From IMG/VR virus record IMGVR_UViG_3300032323_000547, positions 1-33,615 of that record: 33,615 nucleotides of DNA; one strand, written 5' to 3'. The notes below the pieces were generated by a model that did no database searches, had not been told where the DNA came from, and saw only the letters and a list, made by a program, of their open reading frames with translations. The DNA comes from a virus. The first letter of the stretch is position 1. Every line of letters starts with the position of its first letter. The translations under genes and the position numbers were made by a program. This document shows positions 1-33,615 of the stretch, in pieces.

Positions 1-3927
<3,927 letters not shown>

Positions 3928-16560: not shown

Positions 16561-17124
16561 GTGAGTCCATTATTTCGTAACCCAAGTGGTATAGGTGTAC
16601 ACCTAAGAGTAGTTGCAGCACCAACGCCTACGCCTGTCCCAGTGCCAGTTCCTGTTCCTGTGGCTCCAACTCCTGTCCCTGTGGCTCCTACTCCTATTCC
16701 TATTCCAATTCCTGTGCCAGTAGCACCTACACCTATTCCTGTGCCTATTCCTGTACCAGTTGCTCCAACACCTGTTCCAGTGGCACCAACCCCAGTACCA
16801 GTTCCTATTCCAGTGCCTGTAGCACCAACACCAGTACCAGTACCAGTACCAGTGCCTGTAGCACCTACACCTGTAGCACCTACACCTGTAGCACCTACAC
16901 CTGCACCTACTCCAGTACCAGTGGCTCCTACACCAGTGGCTCCTACACCTGCACCTACACCAGTGCCCGTAGCACCTACTCCAGTAGCACCTACTCCAGT
17001 AGCACCAACTCCAGCACCAACACCAGTAGCACCTACACCAATTGATTGTTCTACTGCATACTGTGGAAATGATCCAGGACAGGCATGTTGCATCTATGTT
17101 GGTGGTGACTGTATTGGATGTTAG
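16561..17124 (+). CDS. Pro-rich stalk protein with Cys-rich C-terminal tip
   Basis: It starts at GTG with an AAGGAG site at the right distance. Residues about 20-160 are almost entirely Ala/Thr/Val/Ile-Pro dipeptides ([15 protein letters not shown] type), which should form an extended polyproline II rod of roughly 40 nm. The last 28 residues hold six Cys (CSTAYC...ACCIY...CIGC) and may fold as a small disulphide-knotted or metal-binding tip. The same AP/TP/VP dipeptides are hydroxylation and O-glycosylation sites in plant arabinogalactan proteins, and a 2-oxoglutarate oxygenase gene follows 700 bases later. The product is likely a tail-associated spacer or fibre; no exact family is recognised. 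Confidence 0.75.
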
Positions 17125-19519: not shown

Positions 19520-20460
19520 TGCTATTTGACATGTTCAGCCCAAGAGTTATTCCTCATGGAGGGGTAGATAGAGATAATCCTAATAAAGATTATAGTTCTA
19601 TTAGCCCAATATTAGCAGGACATGCTGAGATAGCCAGACCAGAATATGATTATAAATGGAATAGTGACGGTTTAAGGACCATAGAGTTTTCCTCACATGC
19701 CCCTATTGTAGCCCTAGGATGCTCTATAACGCTTGGACAGGGCCTTCCCTATGACCTAGTATGGCCTCAACTACTTACAGGCCTCTATGGGGCTCCTGTG
19801 GCTTCTATTGCCTACTCTGGAGCATCTGCAAATAAGGTCATTTCTAGTTTTTTTGGCATGATTCATCAATATCAATATAAGCCTGAAATAGTCATTGCCC
19901 ACTTTGCTAACTTTGAAAGGCTATTCTTCGTAAATCCAGAGGGTACTGGAATGCAAGAATGGTTCATTAATCATAGTCCTAAAGTGACAAAGGCTAAAGC
20001 ACCTTGGAACTATCAAGAGATCTTGCCATTTGAATGGGTTTATTACCAGAATTTAGATCACATAAAAATGTTAGAGGCATTCTGTGAAACAAATGGAATT
20101 AAGTTATACTGGTCTTGCTGGTCAAATGGTCTAACTGATGAACAAGAACAATTCCTTAAAGATAACTTTAGACACTATGTTCCAGACACAACAAAGCATG
20201 AGTTTCCAACTAATTTTGAATTTGGTGTAAATGCAAAAACGGTAGATGATTTGCCTGATCAATATGCAATGCTAAATTGGCAAGGCTGTCATCAAGAATG
20301 GAAAGACAAGTATCCAGAGATATTTGACTATGCCTACGATTATCACAAGTTTCCATATGACTATGGCAGAGTAAAAGGTCCTGGTGCTCATCAACCACAT
20401 CCAGGATTGCATCAACAATTACACATCGCAGAGTTTTGGAATAATCAACTATGTCAATAA
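19519..20460 (+). CDS. SGNH/GDSL-type hydrolase or acyltransferase domain protein
   Basis: A 313-aa protein with SGNH-fold blocks: GCSITLGQG with nucleophile S69 (block I), YSGASANKV with G101 (block II), HFANFERL with Asn (block III) and a late AHQPHPGLHQQLH with H294 as the likely catalytic His (block V). Members remove or transfer acyl groups on carbohydrates and lipids. There is no signal peptide, so it acts in the cytoplasm or within the virion. Flanked by a glycosyltransferase and a carbamoyltransferase, it most likely edits or adds an acyl group on the phage-made sugar. A virion esterase acting on host polysaccharide is the alternative. Confidence 0.72.
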   Translation: MLFDMFSPRVIPHGGVDRDNPNKDYSSISPILAGHAEIARPEYDYKWNSDGLRTIEFSSHAPIVALGCSITLGQGLPYDLVWPQLLTGLYGAPVASIAYSGASANKVISSFFGMIHQYQYKPEIVIAHFANFERLFFVNPEGTGMQEWFINHSPKVTKAKAPWNYQEILPFEWVYYQNLDHIKMLEAFCETNGIKLYWSCWSNGLTDEQEQFLKDNFRHYVPDTTKHEFPTNFEFGVNAKTVDDLPDQYAMLNWQGCHQEWKDKYPEIFDYAYDYHKFPYDYGRVKGPGAHQPHPGLHQQLHIAEFWNNQLCQ

Positions 20461-21893
20461 TTTTAGGAATCAATGAAACTACTCACGATGCATCAGTATC
20501 TCTTATCCAGGATGGAAAAATTCTCTTCGCAGGACATGCTGAAAGATACAGCAAGAACAAGAACGACTGGTTCACGAATAGAGAACTTATCAAGGATGCT
20601 CTTCAGTACGGCTACCCAGATCAAATCGCATACTACGAAAAACCACTACTAAAGAAAACAAGACTTATCTTAAAAGGTGGTTTTGGTGGTGGAAGGCCTT
20701 GGTTTGAGGGTACTGAATTGGGAGATCTGCCAAGAAAAAATTTTAGTCATCATCGTTCTCATGCTTCAGCAGGATATTACACAAGCCCATTTGATGACGC
20801 AGTAATTGTTGTACTAGATGCAATTGGAGAATGGGATACCTGCAGTGTTTGGGTAGGTGAAGGCGATAAGATTAAGCATGTCTACTCTGATATCTACCCT
20901 TTTAGTTTTGGCCTGTTCTATTCAGCGTTTACTCAACTTATAGGATTGATGCCTAACCAGGAAGAGTACATCATGATGGGTATGGCTGCTTATGGTGATT
21001 GGCAAAAGCATTACAAGAAAGTTAACTCATACTTTGATTCAGTATCATGTCAGAAGTATAACTTCCACAGAGGCATTCATGACTGGGGTGTCATTGAAAA
21101 CGAGCAAGACAGATTTGATATCGCAGCAGCCGTTCAGTATGTATATCAAAAAAGATTATTAGAGTTTATGAATTTGGCTAAGGCTAACACTGGCAAAAGC
21201 AATCTTGTATTTATGGGAGGCTGTGCCCTTAACTCATCAGCCAACACAAGCCTTTGGAGCATCTTTAAAGATATCTGGATCATGCCTAACCCAGGAGATG
21301 CAGGTAGTTCTTTAGGTGCTGCTGCAGCCCTATACGGAAAGCACATAGATTGGCAAAATCCATATCTGGGCTATGATTTAGGTGGAGAGTATCCAGTAAG
21401 TCAAATCGTTACTGGTCTAATTAGAGACAAGGTTGTTGCTGTTGCTTCAGGTAAGGCTGAGTATGGTCCAAGGGCTTTGGGTAACAGATCAATTCTGGCA
21501 GATCCAAGAGACCCTAACATCAAGGATAAAGTAAACTTGATTAAGAAGCGTGAACTGTTTAGACCGTTTGCTCCTGTAGTTTTAGAAGAACATGCACACA
21601 AATGGTTCAAGATGGACTTTGCAAGTCCTTATATGCAATACACTGTTGAGTGCTTGCAACCAGATAAGATTCCTGCTGTCGTTCATGCAGACGGTACTTC
21701 AAGGGTACAGACTGTAAATAAAGAACAACATCCAGGACTATATGAAGTGCTATCCAATTGGTACGCCATGACAGGAGTTCCAGTGCTTCTAAATACCAGT
21801 CTAAATATCAAGGGTCAGCCATTGCTTAATGATGAAACTGATATCTTAGAGTGGGAACAAACATACAATACAAAGATTGTGGGGCCAAAATGA
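20451..21893 (+). CDS. Carbamoyltransferase (NodU/CmcH/TobZ family)
   Basis: This 480-aa protein has the full two-part layout. Residues 1 to about 340 form the Kae1-like domain with ILGINETTHDASVSL, HHRSHA (100-105, probable metal and catalytic His) and VLDAIGEWDT (121-130). The C-terminal YrdC-like part includes GKAEYGPRALGNRSILADPRD and VPVLLNTSLN. The enzyme uses carbamoyl phosphate and ATP to O-carbamoylate a sugar or small molecule. It overlaps the SGNH gene by 10 bases and shares ATGA with the next gene. The slightly short length against the 540-600 aa of NodU/CmcH reflects a compact linker. In this context a sugar hydroxyl is the probable acceptor. Confidence 0.9.
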   Translation: MSIILGINETTHDASVSLIQDGKILFAGHAERYSKNKNDWFTNRELIKDALQYGYPDQIAYYEKPLLKKTRLILKGGFGGGRPWFEGTELGDLPRKNFSHHRSHASAGYYTSPFDDAVIVVLDAIGEWDTCSVWVGEGDKIKHVYSDIYPFSFGLFYSAFTQLIGLMPNQEEYIMMGMAAYGDWQKHYKKVNSYFDSVSCQKYNFHRGIHDWGVIENEQDRFDIAAAVQYVYQKRLLEFMNLAKANTGKSNLVFMGGCALNSSANTSLWSIFKDIWIMPNPGDAGSSLGAAAALYGKHIDWQNPYLGYDLGGEYPVSQIVTGLIRDKVVAVASGKAEYGPRALGNRSILADPRDPNIKDKVNLIKKRELFRPFAPVVLEEHAHKWFKMDFASPYMQYTVECLQPDKIPAVVHADGTSRVQTVNKEQHPGLYEVLSNWYAMTGVPVLLNTSLNIKGQPLLNDETDILEWEQTYNTKIVGPK

Positions 21894-23386: not shown

Positions 23387-23527
23387 ATGGAGCAGTACAA
23401 AGAAGGTTTCCAAGATGGCTATACTTACGCCAAGGAGGAACTCGTAGACAAACTCTCAGAGGTTGAAGGGCTAGACTCTTGGACCATTGAGCGTATCTGC
23501 GACATGATAGAAAGAAACGAACTATAG
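23387..23527 (+). CDS. Small acidic protein, 46 aa, unknown function
   Basis: The ATG at 23387 lies exactly 7 bases after a -10-like TAAACT (23375-23380), so the message may be leaderless. The product is acidic with likely helices (MEQYKEGFQDGYTYAKEELV, then WTIERICDMIERNEL). The GFQDGYTYAKEEL part resembles small phage proteins with a FxDGYxxA helix. It ends just before the AGGAGG site of the lysis gene. No function is assigned. Confidence 0.6.
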   Translation: MEQYKEGFQDGYTYAKEELVDKLSEVEGLDSWTIERICDMIERNEL

Positions 23528-23538
23528 GAGGTAAATCT

Positions 23539-24005
23539 ATGATCAATGGCTGGGGCAGTTTTTTCACCAACCAAAGGAGAGATTTATTAAGCGAAATAAA
23601 AACAATTGGCAAAGAGCAGTAATTGCAGTTTTGCTAGCAGTATTTTTACAAGCGAGTATTACAACAGATACAGCAAGTCCAGAACCAGCAATAGTATATG
23701 AGCCAAGGCCAATACTAGAGCAGGTATCTGCAAAAGAAATAGCAAAAGAATTGCTTGATCCTAAGCAGTTTGTATGCCTGACCAAATTGGTAGGGAAAGA
23801 GTCAGCCTGGAGACCAGAGGCTCAGAACCCTACTTCCACCGCAAGTGGGATTGGACAGATGCTAGACAGCACAGTAAGCAGTCTTGGCATGAAGAAGTCA
23901 GATAGTGCAGTAGCCCAATTGGTTGCTACGCTGTCTTACATATCAAGACGACATTCCACTCCATGCGGAGCCTGGAAACATTTTCAAAAGAATAGGTGGT
24001 ACTAA
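23539..24005 (+). CDS. Membrane-anchored lytic transglycosylase-like enzyme (needs -1 shift at a T6 run)
   Basis: A strong AGGAGG site (23526) stands 7 bases before the ATG at 23539, but that frame ends after 27 codons. The muralytic frame is -1 to it, is open from 23535 and has no good ATG or ribosome site of its own (first standard start is TTG at 23631). Slipping back one base at TTTTTTC (23559-23565) gives 155 aa: a basic N-terminus, a signal anchor (NWQRAVIAVLLAVFLQ), a linker, then a transglycosylase-like domain with catalytic Glu in KESAWRPEAQNP and ASGIGQM. It would cleave peptidoglycan from outside the membrane. Either frameshifting is real or one T is missing from the assembly. Confidence 0.75.
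23559..23565 (+). promoter_or_regulatory. Slippery heptamer TTTTTTC in the lysis gene
   Basis: In the frame of the ATG at 23539 it reads T TTT TTC, a good X XXY YYZ -1 site. A 7-T run would make the gene continuous, so this may be a homopolymer error. Confidence 0.55.
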
Positions 24006-24114: not shown

Positions 24115-24207
24115 ATGACAGACCATACAGAAGAAATTTTAGAAGAAGAACTTTTCGTCACAAGCATAGACGCAGAAGGAAATATCACAACAACACCTGT
24201 TGTTTGA
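24115..24207 (+). CDS. Small acidic protein, 30 aa, IDAEGN type
   Basis: A strong AAGGAGA site starting within the preceding stop codon region supports translation. The product is very acidic (TDHTEEILEEELF) and then forms a hairpin VTSIDAEGNITTTPVV like that in its neighbour. Its TGA overlaps the -35 box of the downstream promoter. Confidence 0.6.
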   Translation: MTDHTEEILEEELFVTSIDAEGNITTTPVV

Positions 24208-24232
24208 CATGTGTTATAACACCTGCTATACT
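24204..24232 (+). promoter_or_regulatory. Strong extended promoter TTGACA-17-TGC-TATACT with palindromic operator
   Basis: A perfect -35 (24204-24209), 17-base spacing, extended -10 TGC and TATACT (24227-24232) point to a strong promoter. Transcription should begin near 24239. The spacer contains a perfect 12-base palindrome, GTGTTATAACAC (24211-24222), so a dimeric regulator may control it. Confidence 0.8.
24211..24222. promoter_or_regulatory. Palindromic operator GTGTTATAACAC
   Basis: Perfect 12-base inverted repeat between -35 and -10. A bound dimer would block or remodel RNA polymerase. No such palindrome was noticed in the other promoter spacers of the window. Confidence 0.5.
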
Positions 24233-24238
24233 AATATT

Positions 24239-24327
24239 CTATGAAGTTCACCTCCGTGATTTCCATAGAACCTGAAGGGCCTTACAGAGTTTAATCCCAT
24301 TCTCTTTGTAGGGCCCTTCTTCTTTTG
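24239..24327 (+). ncRNA. Candidate small RNA between promoter and terminator
   Basis: About 89 bases from the expected start to the end of the terminator, without an ORF or ribosome site of use. The 5' end forms a 7-bp hairpin (TTCTATG / CATAGAA, 24237-24270) whose loop carries ACCTCC, the anti-Shine-Dalgarno core, so it might bind ribosome sites of mRNAs. The 3' hairpin is the terminator. The next promoter is separate, 42 bases downstream. Confidence 0.55.
24274..24327 (+). terminator. Rho-independent terminator of the small RNA
   Basis: An 8-bp stem GAAGGGCC / GGCCCTTC (24274-24281 with 24312-24319), extended inside by imperfect TTACAGAG / CTCTTTGTA pairing, followed by TTCTTTTG. Confidence 0.78.
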
Positions 24328-24368
24328 TCCCTTATGTCCGTTTTGTCCTATTTCTAAAACAGGCATAG

Positions 24369-24398
24369 TTGACACTTATTAAACAATCATGGTAAGAT
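24369..24398 (+). promoter_or_regulatory. Promoter TTGACA-18-TGG-TAAGAT
   Basis: Perfect -35 (24369-24374), 18-base spacing and extended -10 (TGG, TAAGAT at 24393-24398). Transcription should start near 24405, which places the upstream ATG at 24412 too close for a ribosome site but suits the ATG at 24427. Confidence 0.7.
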
Positions 24399-24426
24399 AG
24401 ATACACGACACATGAATGGGGCAGAA

Positions 24427-24729
24427 ATGTACATTAAGCAGGTACGATCAAAAGACAACAGGTATAGCACTGTTGAGTATGACAACGATGGAAACATTAT
24501 TTTGCAAACAAAGGCTGCAAGAAAAGCCAGAGCAGAAGCAAGAAAAAAAGAAGAAGCAAAAAAACAAAAGTTAAAAACTGCTGTAAAATGTAGTGCATTA
24601 ACAAAGAAGATGAAGCCTTGTCCAAACATCGTTGATGAATGGCGAGGTGGTACATTATGTCATGTACATGATCCAAACGGAACATTTAGAACACAAGTCA
24701 AAGAAAAAAGGGAACGATACAAAAAATAA
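24427..24729 (+). CDS. Small basic protein with CxxxT-CP...CHVH zinc-binding motif
   Basis: The ATG at 24427 is chosen because GGGG of ATGGGGC lies 5 bases upstream; an in-frame ATG at 24412 is the alternative. The 100-aa product has a beta part (STVEYDNDGNIILQ), a charged helix of Lys/Ala/Arg/Glu (about residues 30-55) and a C-terminal CSALTKKMKPCPN...LCHVHDPNG with Cys/His ligands, a small zinc-finger type found in many actinobacterial phages. It may bind nucleic acid. Its own promoter suggests early or regulated expression. Confidence 0.72.
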   Translation: MYIKQVRSKDNRYSTVEYDNDGNIILQTKAARKARAEARKKEEAKKQKLKTAVKCSALTKKMKPCPNIVDEWRGGTLCHVHDPNGTFRTQVKEKRERYKK

Positions 24730-25035
24730 AATTGCAGTAAACAAATACTCTTTTCAGAATCTGAGTGTACTCTCAGAGGGAACAACACCTAGGGTTACAG
24801 TAGGGACCAAGGCGTAAGGTAAAATCTTACAGAGTTTGAGATAAAGTGGAGGATTGGTAATCAGCACTCTCAAAGGAAAGTTTCTGGAGGGCATTAGTAA
24901 AAAATACTAATGAAAGTTCCCTACCTGAGTTGTATCAAAAAACAATTACATAATACGCTTGCTTCGCAAGCAAAGCCTTACGGCTTTAGAATCAAGGTAT
25001 TAGACCAGGAGAAGATTCCATGATACAATAAAGTA
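24730..25035 (+). ncRNA. Highly structured noncoding stretch, about 300 bases
   Basis: No convincing gene lies here. Perfect local pairings include TCTGAG/CTCAGA (24760/24772), GTAAG/CTTAC (24814/24826), TTTGAG-AGTG with CACT-CTCAAA (24835-24874) and CATTAGTA-A5-TACTAATG (24892-24912). GTAGGGA/TCCCTAC (24800/24918) encloses the middle ones. A second domain is closed by TTGTATC/GATACAA (24930/25022), then TAATAC/GTATTA (24951/24997), which holds two abutting hairpins GCTTGC-TTC-GCAAGC and AAAGCC-TTAC-GGCTTT. GAATC/GATTC could pair across. It may be an RNA gene, a long 3' leader element or a replication origin. Confidence 0.6.
25000..25029 (+). promoter_or_regulatory. Possible promoter TTAGAC-18-TGA-TACAAT (leaderless start at 25036)
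   Basis: Extended -10 TGA-TACAAT (25021-25029) with TTAGAC 18 bases upstream. The expected start, 7 bases after the -10, is the A of ATG at 25036. The -10 also forms the closing strand of the structured domain. Confidence 0.45.
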
Positions 25036-28302: not shown

Positions 28303-29031
28303 ATGGACAACAACATGAATGTAGGTAAGTTAACTAAGAGTCAGTATCGTACTCTTAAGTCTAACCTTGCTGAGTTGCCTGAGTTGCAACAAGGTGCTGC
28401 ATCATTTGTTACTCCAGGAAGATCAGGCTCAGGTACAGTAAGCACAGAGAGATCAATTGGTTTCAATGTGAACGCACTAGATTACTCTATGGCTAATGAA
28501 TTGCTTGGGGTCATGCATAAGTATGAAGCAATCATCCGTAGAGGTAGGTCCCTAACTCCTCCAGCCTTACTGAAGAGAGAAGCCACAGTAGAACTAGAGG
28601 TTGCTGCAACAGTCTCATTCCACTTAGCCCATCTTGAATGGACAGTCCAACAGGATTGGGTGGAAGAGTTTGCGGGACTAATAAAGGAACTCCATAGCAA
28701 AGGAATGGCCTGTAATAAGAAGTTCATAGAACAACCAAGAAGAATCCCATGTCCTACTGATGAGTGTAGAGCACATATAGTTATTGATATAGAGAACCTC
28801 ATGGCTGGTGTTACCTGTCATAAGTGTCGTACCTCATGGACTCTCTATAGACTATTAGGGCTGGCGATGAATAATCCCAATAGAACCTTCTGGTTAGATA
28901 TAGATGCTATCTGTCTATGGATGAACATAACCAAGATAGATCTTAACAAGATAGTTAGAGATCACAACATACCCGTAAAGAATGGTCTGTATGATATCTC
29001 TGCTATTGCTAAGGCAAGGAGTTTAGTTTGA
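28303..29031 (+). CDS. DNA-binding-type protein with zinc ribbon and helix-turn-helix-like end
   Basis: Starts after AAAGGGGC with 5-base spacing. The 242-aa product has a helical N-terminal half, a zinc ribbon around C150, C155, C172 and C175 (PCPTDECRAH...TCHKCRTSW), and an end with WMNITKIDLNKIVRDHNIPVKNGLYDISAI, which looks like a helix-turn-helix. Such proteins are common among small genes of actinobacterial phages and may regulate transcription. It directly precedes a strong promoter, which it could control. Confidence 0.7.
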   Translation: MDNNMNVGKLTKSQYRTLKSNLAELPELQQGAASFVTPGRSGSGTVSTERSIGFNVNALDYSMANELLGVMHKYEAIIRRGRSLTPPALLKREATVELEVAATVSFHLAHLEWTVQQDWVEEFAGLIKELHSKGMACNKKFIEQPRRIPCPTDECRAHIVIDIENLMAGVTCHKCRTSWTLYRLLGLAMNNPNRTFWLDIDAICLWMNITKIDLNKIVRDHNIPVKNGLYDISAIAKARSLV

Positions 29032-33350: not shown

Positions 33351-33615
33351 TGTTAATGTTACAGCCGTTACAAATGTAGTTACCGTTGATGAAGTCAACA
33401 ACATTGTCACAGTTACTTCACCTGGTGGACAAGGAGCCGTTGGTCCTACTGGAGCGACTGGCTCAACTGGACCTACTGGAAGTACAGGTGCAACTGGATC
33501 AACAGGAGCAACAGGAAGTACTGGACCATCAGGTGCAACAGGAGTTACAGGACCCGTAGGTCAAACTGGATCAACTGGTGCGACAGGTCCTCAAGGTGTT
33601 ACAGGTGATGTAGGA
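33343..33615 (+). CDS. Collagen-like fibre protein (5' part; continues at base 1)
   Basis: The ATG at 33343 overlaps the stop of the preceding gene (ATGCCTAA), which indicates translational coupling. The first 26 or so residues ([20 protein letters not shown]...) form a short beta-rich anchor. After a PGGQG hinge the Gly-X-Thr repeat starts and runs to the window end with no stop. The last base closes a codon, and base 124 continues the same frame after the 123-base terminal overlap. This segment therefore supplies the N-terminal 50 unique residues plus 41 that are duplicated at the window start. The small structural gene just upstream may be a partner for the N-terminal anchor; that is inference. 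Confidence 0.85.
33493..33615. repeat. Terminal direct repeat, right copy
   Basis: An exact copy of the first 123 bases of the window. Removing one copy gives a unique circle of 33,492 bp. Confidence 0.9.

Follow-up and report, generated by a model that had tools for sequence, protein, structure and literature searches.

In Firmicutes, small RNAs (sRNAs) such as RsaE are encoded on the chromosome, and their exposed C-rich motif pairs with Shine-Dalgarno (SD) sequences. The 6C RNA is defined by loops that contain at least six consecutive C residues. Among phage RNAs that target host messages, those studied in depth belong for the most part to Hfq-dependent systems of Proteobacteria, in agreement with a review of the subject (PMC12197685). 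For example, VpdS of phage VP882 binds Hfq, and AgvB mimics the targets of a host sRNA (PMC12197685). The c4 RNA of phages P1 and P7 is an antisense RNA with a role in heteroimmunity, where its target is the ant message of the phage itself (PMC12197685). In M. abscessus, either C-rich loop of the B11 RNA represses a message whose leader contains a G-tract, and the repression is abolished when both loops are lost (PMC10470900). The literature was also searched for phage anti-SD small RNAs, and none was found.

The DNA studied here (the window) is a stretch of 33,615 nucleotides, IMG/VR record IMGVR_UViG_3300032323_000547. It is the genome of a tailed phage, with identified terminase, portal, capsid and transglycosylase genes and a GC content of 0.40. 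Positions 1-123 are exactly the same as 33493-33615, and this 123-bp terminal repeat indicates that the genome is circular or terminally redundant. Collagen-like GPT-type repeats are present in a tail-fibre-like ORF (1-3300), and a proline-rich PTPVPVAP-type repeat is located at 16620-17060.

The deposited terminase nearest to that of the window belongs to Pontimonas phage phiPsal1 (44%), and the relatives of the transglycosylase are almost exclusively in actinophages. The host is therefore very likely an actinobacterium, probably one with a small genome. No relative of the window was matched among the deposited phages by DNA comparison; Vibrio phages gave two matches, both short and weak, which were attributed to chance. 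A phage-borne carbamoyltransferase (Nol type, 20451-21893) has actinobacterial homologues that align with most of its length at no more than 39% identity, and such distant homologues are uninformative on the host lineage. One related locus (L124) is on a MAG, and genomes of the order of this MAG were used as the likely-host set. In this order, 254 of the 296 genomes encode a relative of the phage transglycosylase on the chromosome. The nine best scores are all within one subgroup, two genomes of which have GC contents of 0.40-0.41, close to that of the phage. The genomes of the order (roughly 0.6-2.2 Mb) are consistent with 'Ca. Nanopelagicales', for which cultured phages and hosts now exist (PMC10202952). 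If this is truly the host order, the target prediction presented below is directly testable.

Anatomy of the small RNA gene

The gene consists of a promoter, a first hairpin and an intrinsic terminator (Table 1). The promoter matches the consensus at 11 of 12 positions, has the extended -10 TG, and ranks first among the 15 found when 5 kb were scanned. Its -35 box overlaps the stop codon of a small ORF (24115-24207). The 5' end of the RNA was placed 6-7 nt past the -10 box. The region folds at -41.3 kcal/mol (z = -7.4), a value equalled by none of 200 shuffles. The CACCTCC motif in the loop of hairpin 1 is the only occurrence of this sequence on the + strand of the window.

Table 1. Features of the small RNA gene and their positions in the window.
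Feature	Position	Strand	Composition and basis
Promoter	24204-24232	+	TTGACA 24204-24209, 17-bp spacer, TATACT; extended -10 TGCTATACT 24224-24232; consensus scan
Palindrome GTGTTATAACAC, 12 bp	24211-24222		In the promoter spacer; regarded as a chance feature
Predicted small RNA, ~85-88 nt	24239-24326	+	Placed from promoter and terminator
Hairpin 1	24237-24270	+	Fold; arms TTCTATG 24237-24243 and CATAGAA 24264-24270
CACCTCC, anti-Shine-Dalgarno-like, in hairpin 1 loop	24249-24255	+	Alignment, predicted exposure
Intrinsic terminator	24274-24326	+	Fold; 16-bp stem 24274-24289 with 24304-24319; T-rich tail from 24320
TCCCATT, second C-rich motif, in terminator loop	24295-24301	+	Invariant alignment columns

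The near-perfect extended promoter, the strong terminator and the stretch without a gene between them, which the initial annotation had described, are all borne out. A 17-codon leaderless frame starting at ATG 24241 was rejected as a gene, as indels break the frame in one relative (L045) and the ATG is lost in another (L060). The 12-base palindrome in the promoter spacer, to which the same annotation had given an operator role, is present, but the role does not stand. The window contains 11 perfect 12-bp palindromes, compared to 9.6 expected, and this one is retained in 1 of 21 distinct promoter-spacer variants of the relatives, even though the promoter around it is conserved. The promoter, the hairpin and the terminator are above chance and conserved, and the palindrome is neither.

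Several other features are located near the gene. The transglycosylase frame (23539-24005) has no ATG, GTG or TTG close to the ribosome site AAAGGAGAGATTTATTAAG. Its start would require an ATT near 23586 or a shift from a short ORF at 23539, and the relatives are similar. The segment AGGAGGTAAATCTATG at 23526-23541 contains the sole + strand GGAGGT of the window. Downstream of the small RNA, the roughly 300 bases (24730-25035) that separate ORF 24412-24729 from the following ORF have no clear gene and contain repeat-like pieces, with CTTACAGAGTTT common to this stretch and the small-RNA terminator. This region is possibly another structured RNA.

Conservation and covariation among related phages

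One relative, L001, is a contig with the same promoter sequence, and others were sought by pattern scans. The set used here was chosen by the neighboring transglycosylase and not by the RNA, and comprises the best 80 loci encoding this protein. The RNA gene lies downstream of the transglycosylase in 55 of these 80 viral contigs, while 2 end before its position and 23, nearly all from more distant phages, lack the element and have another gene directly next; the tally is a manual count from the printed loci, and the metagenome contigs are partly redundant. The 124 bases of the element are identical in L001 and L004, and the genes on both flanks differ. A scan of genome contigs with the promoter-plus-loop pattern gave zero matches. 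Two loci that a promoter-loop pattern had picked up (L042 and L043) were rejected as members, as they have neither the transglycosylase nor a terminator and are probably due to chance.

The clade of the window type shares the promoter TTGACA-N-TG.TAYAMT, the stem TCTATG/CATAGA and the loop CACCUCC. At least three unrelated terminators are found 3' of the hairpin in this clade, every one with UCCC in its loop, and TCCC forms the invariant columns T59, C60, C61 and C62 of alignment A2 despite the differing terminator stems. The loops CACCUCC and UCCCRUU are found throughout the alignment. Promoters, hairpins and terminators are present in varying combinations, which points to module exchange by recombination.

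The stem of hairpin 1 covaries. More distant members carry other stems, including TCTATA/TATAGA (L060), GTTGA/TCAAC (L065, L066, L102), ATTGC/GCAAT (L068), GTCAG/CTGAC (L079, L090), TGTCA/TGACA (L095), CATCA/TGATG (L067) and CTATC/GATAG (L049). All nine stem types are fully complementary, and all five pairs tested are changed on both sides. The stem pairs are 100% paired, compared to 50% in shuffles, a percentage favored by selection because the arms were picked from individual folds; this selection has no bearing on how many different stems surround the one motif. A covariance model of the window clade finds the GTTGA type (L041 and L066) at E = 0.0008 and the other types weakly, with a short calibration.

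Had the initial annotation been mistaken, the loop might have varied freely among relatives; the opposite was found, with stems that vary and a loop that stays. CCUCC is kept in nearly all relatives. An exception is L049, with CUCCC in the loop GCUCCC and a low predicted exposure of 0.33. The mean unpaired probability of the CCUCC core is 0.83, compared to 0.69 with its surroundings shuffled, and it is higher in 38 of 44 distinct RNAs, a descriptive comparison since the 44 sequences are related. In three members (L076, L091 and L117), the motif is located in the linker between the hairpins rather than in a loop. Eleven distant members have a second invariant element, GUUGCCAU, positioned 5' of UCACCUCC on differing stems, with the variant GUUGCCAA in L117. 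The window's own RNA does not contain GUUGCCAU.

The locus is a real, conserved RNA gene, and from its promoter and terminator we infer that it is transcribed. Its own conserved promoter and intrinsic terminator, together with the lack of a conserved reading frame, make it an sRNA gene, self-contained and with an anti-SD-like loop as first proposed. The conserved, exposed seed and its predicted complementarity to translation initiation regions place it among candidate trans-acting sRNAs.

A second strongly conserved non-coding RNA, of roughly 200-230 nt (ACTTCAGAGCGTTTAGAGATCACATCAATGTTGGTTCTGAAGGGACTACGGGCAG...) and with its own promoter, immediately follows the small RNA in about 20 related contigs, for example at L080:2089-2400 and also in L045, L053, L054, L058, L061, L065-L067, L070, L073, L078, L088, L091 and L106. 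It has no match in Rfam even at E up to 1. In the window, ORF 24412-24729 occupies its place.

Predicted messages and alternative roles

The reading that we favor, and consider probable, is that of a trans-acting antisense sRNA that would occlude the strong SD sites of a few host messages; this judgement covers the class of mechanism and not an individual target. An RNA of ~85 nt would be made from the host-type promoter and would fold so that a stem-loop displays UCACCUCC and the loop of the terminator hairpin displays UCCCAUU. The displayed motif would pair with the extended SD sequence GGAGGUGA and keep ribosomes off those messages, with repression as the expected outcome. As GGAGG leads ~2% of genes, only a few messages would be affected, and translation as a whole would not. 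First among the targets would be the host DUF4193 mRNA, followed by gyrB. In the distant relatives, the DUF4193 message would also have its start codon covered, by the second loop GUUGCCAU.

The idea that the RNA could bind ribosome sites of mRNAs, also from the initial annotation, gains support as a specific target prediction from pattern searches and a two-site energy model. Read antiparallel, GUUGCCAU and UCACCUCC predict a message of the form GGAGGUGA-N-AUGGCAAC. The pattern GGAGGN{3,10}ATGGCAAC has 33 matches in 61 genomes, compared to 5 with the reversed pattern, which is a lenient control because an SD followed by ATGGC is favored by translation generally. The gene in which the predicted pattern recurs most often encodes DUF4193 (Pfam), a protein of 98 residues (MATDYDTPRK...). 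Among the DUF4193 leaders inspected in the low-GC subgroup, GGAGGTG is present in 19 of 19, GGAGGTGA in 9 and the start ATGGCAAC in 14. The sequence of the single-copy DUF4193 site is AAGGAGGUGACUGAUGGCAAC, with the leader AAGGAGGTGACTGATGGCAAC....

One complete low-GC genome of the likely host order was analyzed, with 1171 genes called by a simple ORF script. Six of the genes have a GGAGGTG leader, identified by eye as gyrB, secF, a response regulator, a coiled-coil/zinc-ribbon-like protein, rplX and DUF4193, and ten start with ATGGCAAC. The overlap between the two groups is DUF4193 only (1 observed, 0.05 expected), which is modest after several looks, as the target statistics came after the inspection of several motifs. 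The two-site energy model ranks DUF4193 first of the 1171 genes (-26.0 kcal/mol) and gyrB second (-25.2). When the second motif was scrambled 60 times, the best gene never went beyond -22.1 kcal/mol. In seven further genomes, GGAGGTGA and the start codon alone pick out DUF4193 in five, compared to two for the runner-up. With the core UCACCUCC of the window's RNA alone, DUF4193 is second, behind an antisense-rRNA artefact; with the full loop it falls to 28th and gyrB is first. As a result, support is stronger for the class of target than for any individual gene. No consistent host target was found for the terminator loop across nine variants.

We consider it possible, and short of probable, that DUF4193 is the main target. 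A fuller picture is put forward tentatively, in which the sRNA of a widespread family of phages infecting small-genome actinobacteria imitates the anti-SD tail, its two-loop form clamps the SD and the start codon of DUF4193, with gyrB as second target, and a host function is thereby switched off during infection. The small RNA itself would represent an RNA family of uncultured actinophages that is so far undescribed and whose mechanism is readable from sequence. Should DUF4193 prove to be the target, the phage would mark out a conserved but uncharacterised protein of actinobacteria as a point where the cell is vulnerable.

The loop could instead be a mimic of 16S rRNA that titrates SD sequences generally, or binds a protein that recognizes the 16S tail, and lowers host translation broadly. 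The motif is identical to the anti-SD core at the end of 16S rRNA, most fully in L074, where GGAUCACCUCC corresponds to the 16S 3' end, and some members (L079 and L083) have two such loops. However, there would be little to titrate with GGAGG leaders at ~2% of genes, and nothing in the 16S tail corresponds to the second motif GUUGCCAU, which fits a start codon; this account is unlikely. A global host shutoff through GGAGG leaders that spares phage genes was rejected, as GGAGG is equally rare in hosts and phages.

Self-regulation is quite unlikely as a general role. The RNA would pair with the phage sequence AGGAGGUAAAU upstream of the transglycosylase operon and time lysis or cell-wall digestion. 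The GGAGGT there (at 23527) precedes the aligned start of the transglycosylase frame by ~100 nt, and the window-type clade has kept it alongside the RNA gene. However, the leader is GGAGGUAA and not GGAGGUGA, so six pairs at most can form, and many RNA-bearing phages (L065-L067, L070-L072 and L076-L079) have no GGAGG upstream of the transglycosylase. Control of the phage's own transglycosylase leader is a possible role within the window clade.

It is very unlikely that the locus is an insulator between two gene blocks, or a leader that attenuates the downstream gene, with a loop that has no partner. The strong terminator would suit such a function, as would a second promoter (24369-24398) that serves ORF 24412-24729. 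Nevertheless, a pure insulator leaves unexplained the invariant loop on nine stems and the TCCC on exchanged terminators, and the gene that follows is served by a promoter of its own and is not the same from phage to phage. The timing switch of the initial annotation, with a repressor on the spacer palindrome, can be dismissed as extremely improbable: the palindrome exists within the spacer, but at chance frequency and unconserved, and the proposed regulator (the product at 28303) has a PHROG of unknown function as its only match and none in Pfam.

Comparison with described RNAs

No Rfam family matches the small RNA at the gathering threshold, and the matches at E up to 10 are sub-threshold and due to chance. 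The RF01066 covariance model gives no match at the gathering threshold in the window or in 12 relatives, and none in 24150-24400 even at E up to 10. The 6C RNA itself was found in 0 of 61 genomes of the likely host order.

The antisense sRNA favored here shares with c4 a phage origin, complementary stretches located in loops and the (here predicted) blocking of a ribosome-binding site. In comparison, its predicted targets are host messages, and its sequence and position are unrelated to those of c4, with no Rfam match. As with VpdS and AgvB of Proteobacteria, a phage-encoded sRNA would change host expression by pairing, but the motif here mimics the anti-SD tail. The exposed C-rich motif is similar to that of RsaE, which is chromosomal and has another architecture, and the lack of an Rfam match also sets the two apart.

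The RNA also resembles 6C/B11 (RF01066). Both are short RNAs with two stem-loops and exposed C-rich loops in an actinobacterial setting. On the other hand, the RNA described here belongs to a phage and not to a chromosome, and its loops are CACCUCC and UCCCRUU rather than runs of six C residues. By this analogy, the best explanation is that the small RNA would work in the manner of 6C/B11 while standing outside that family.
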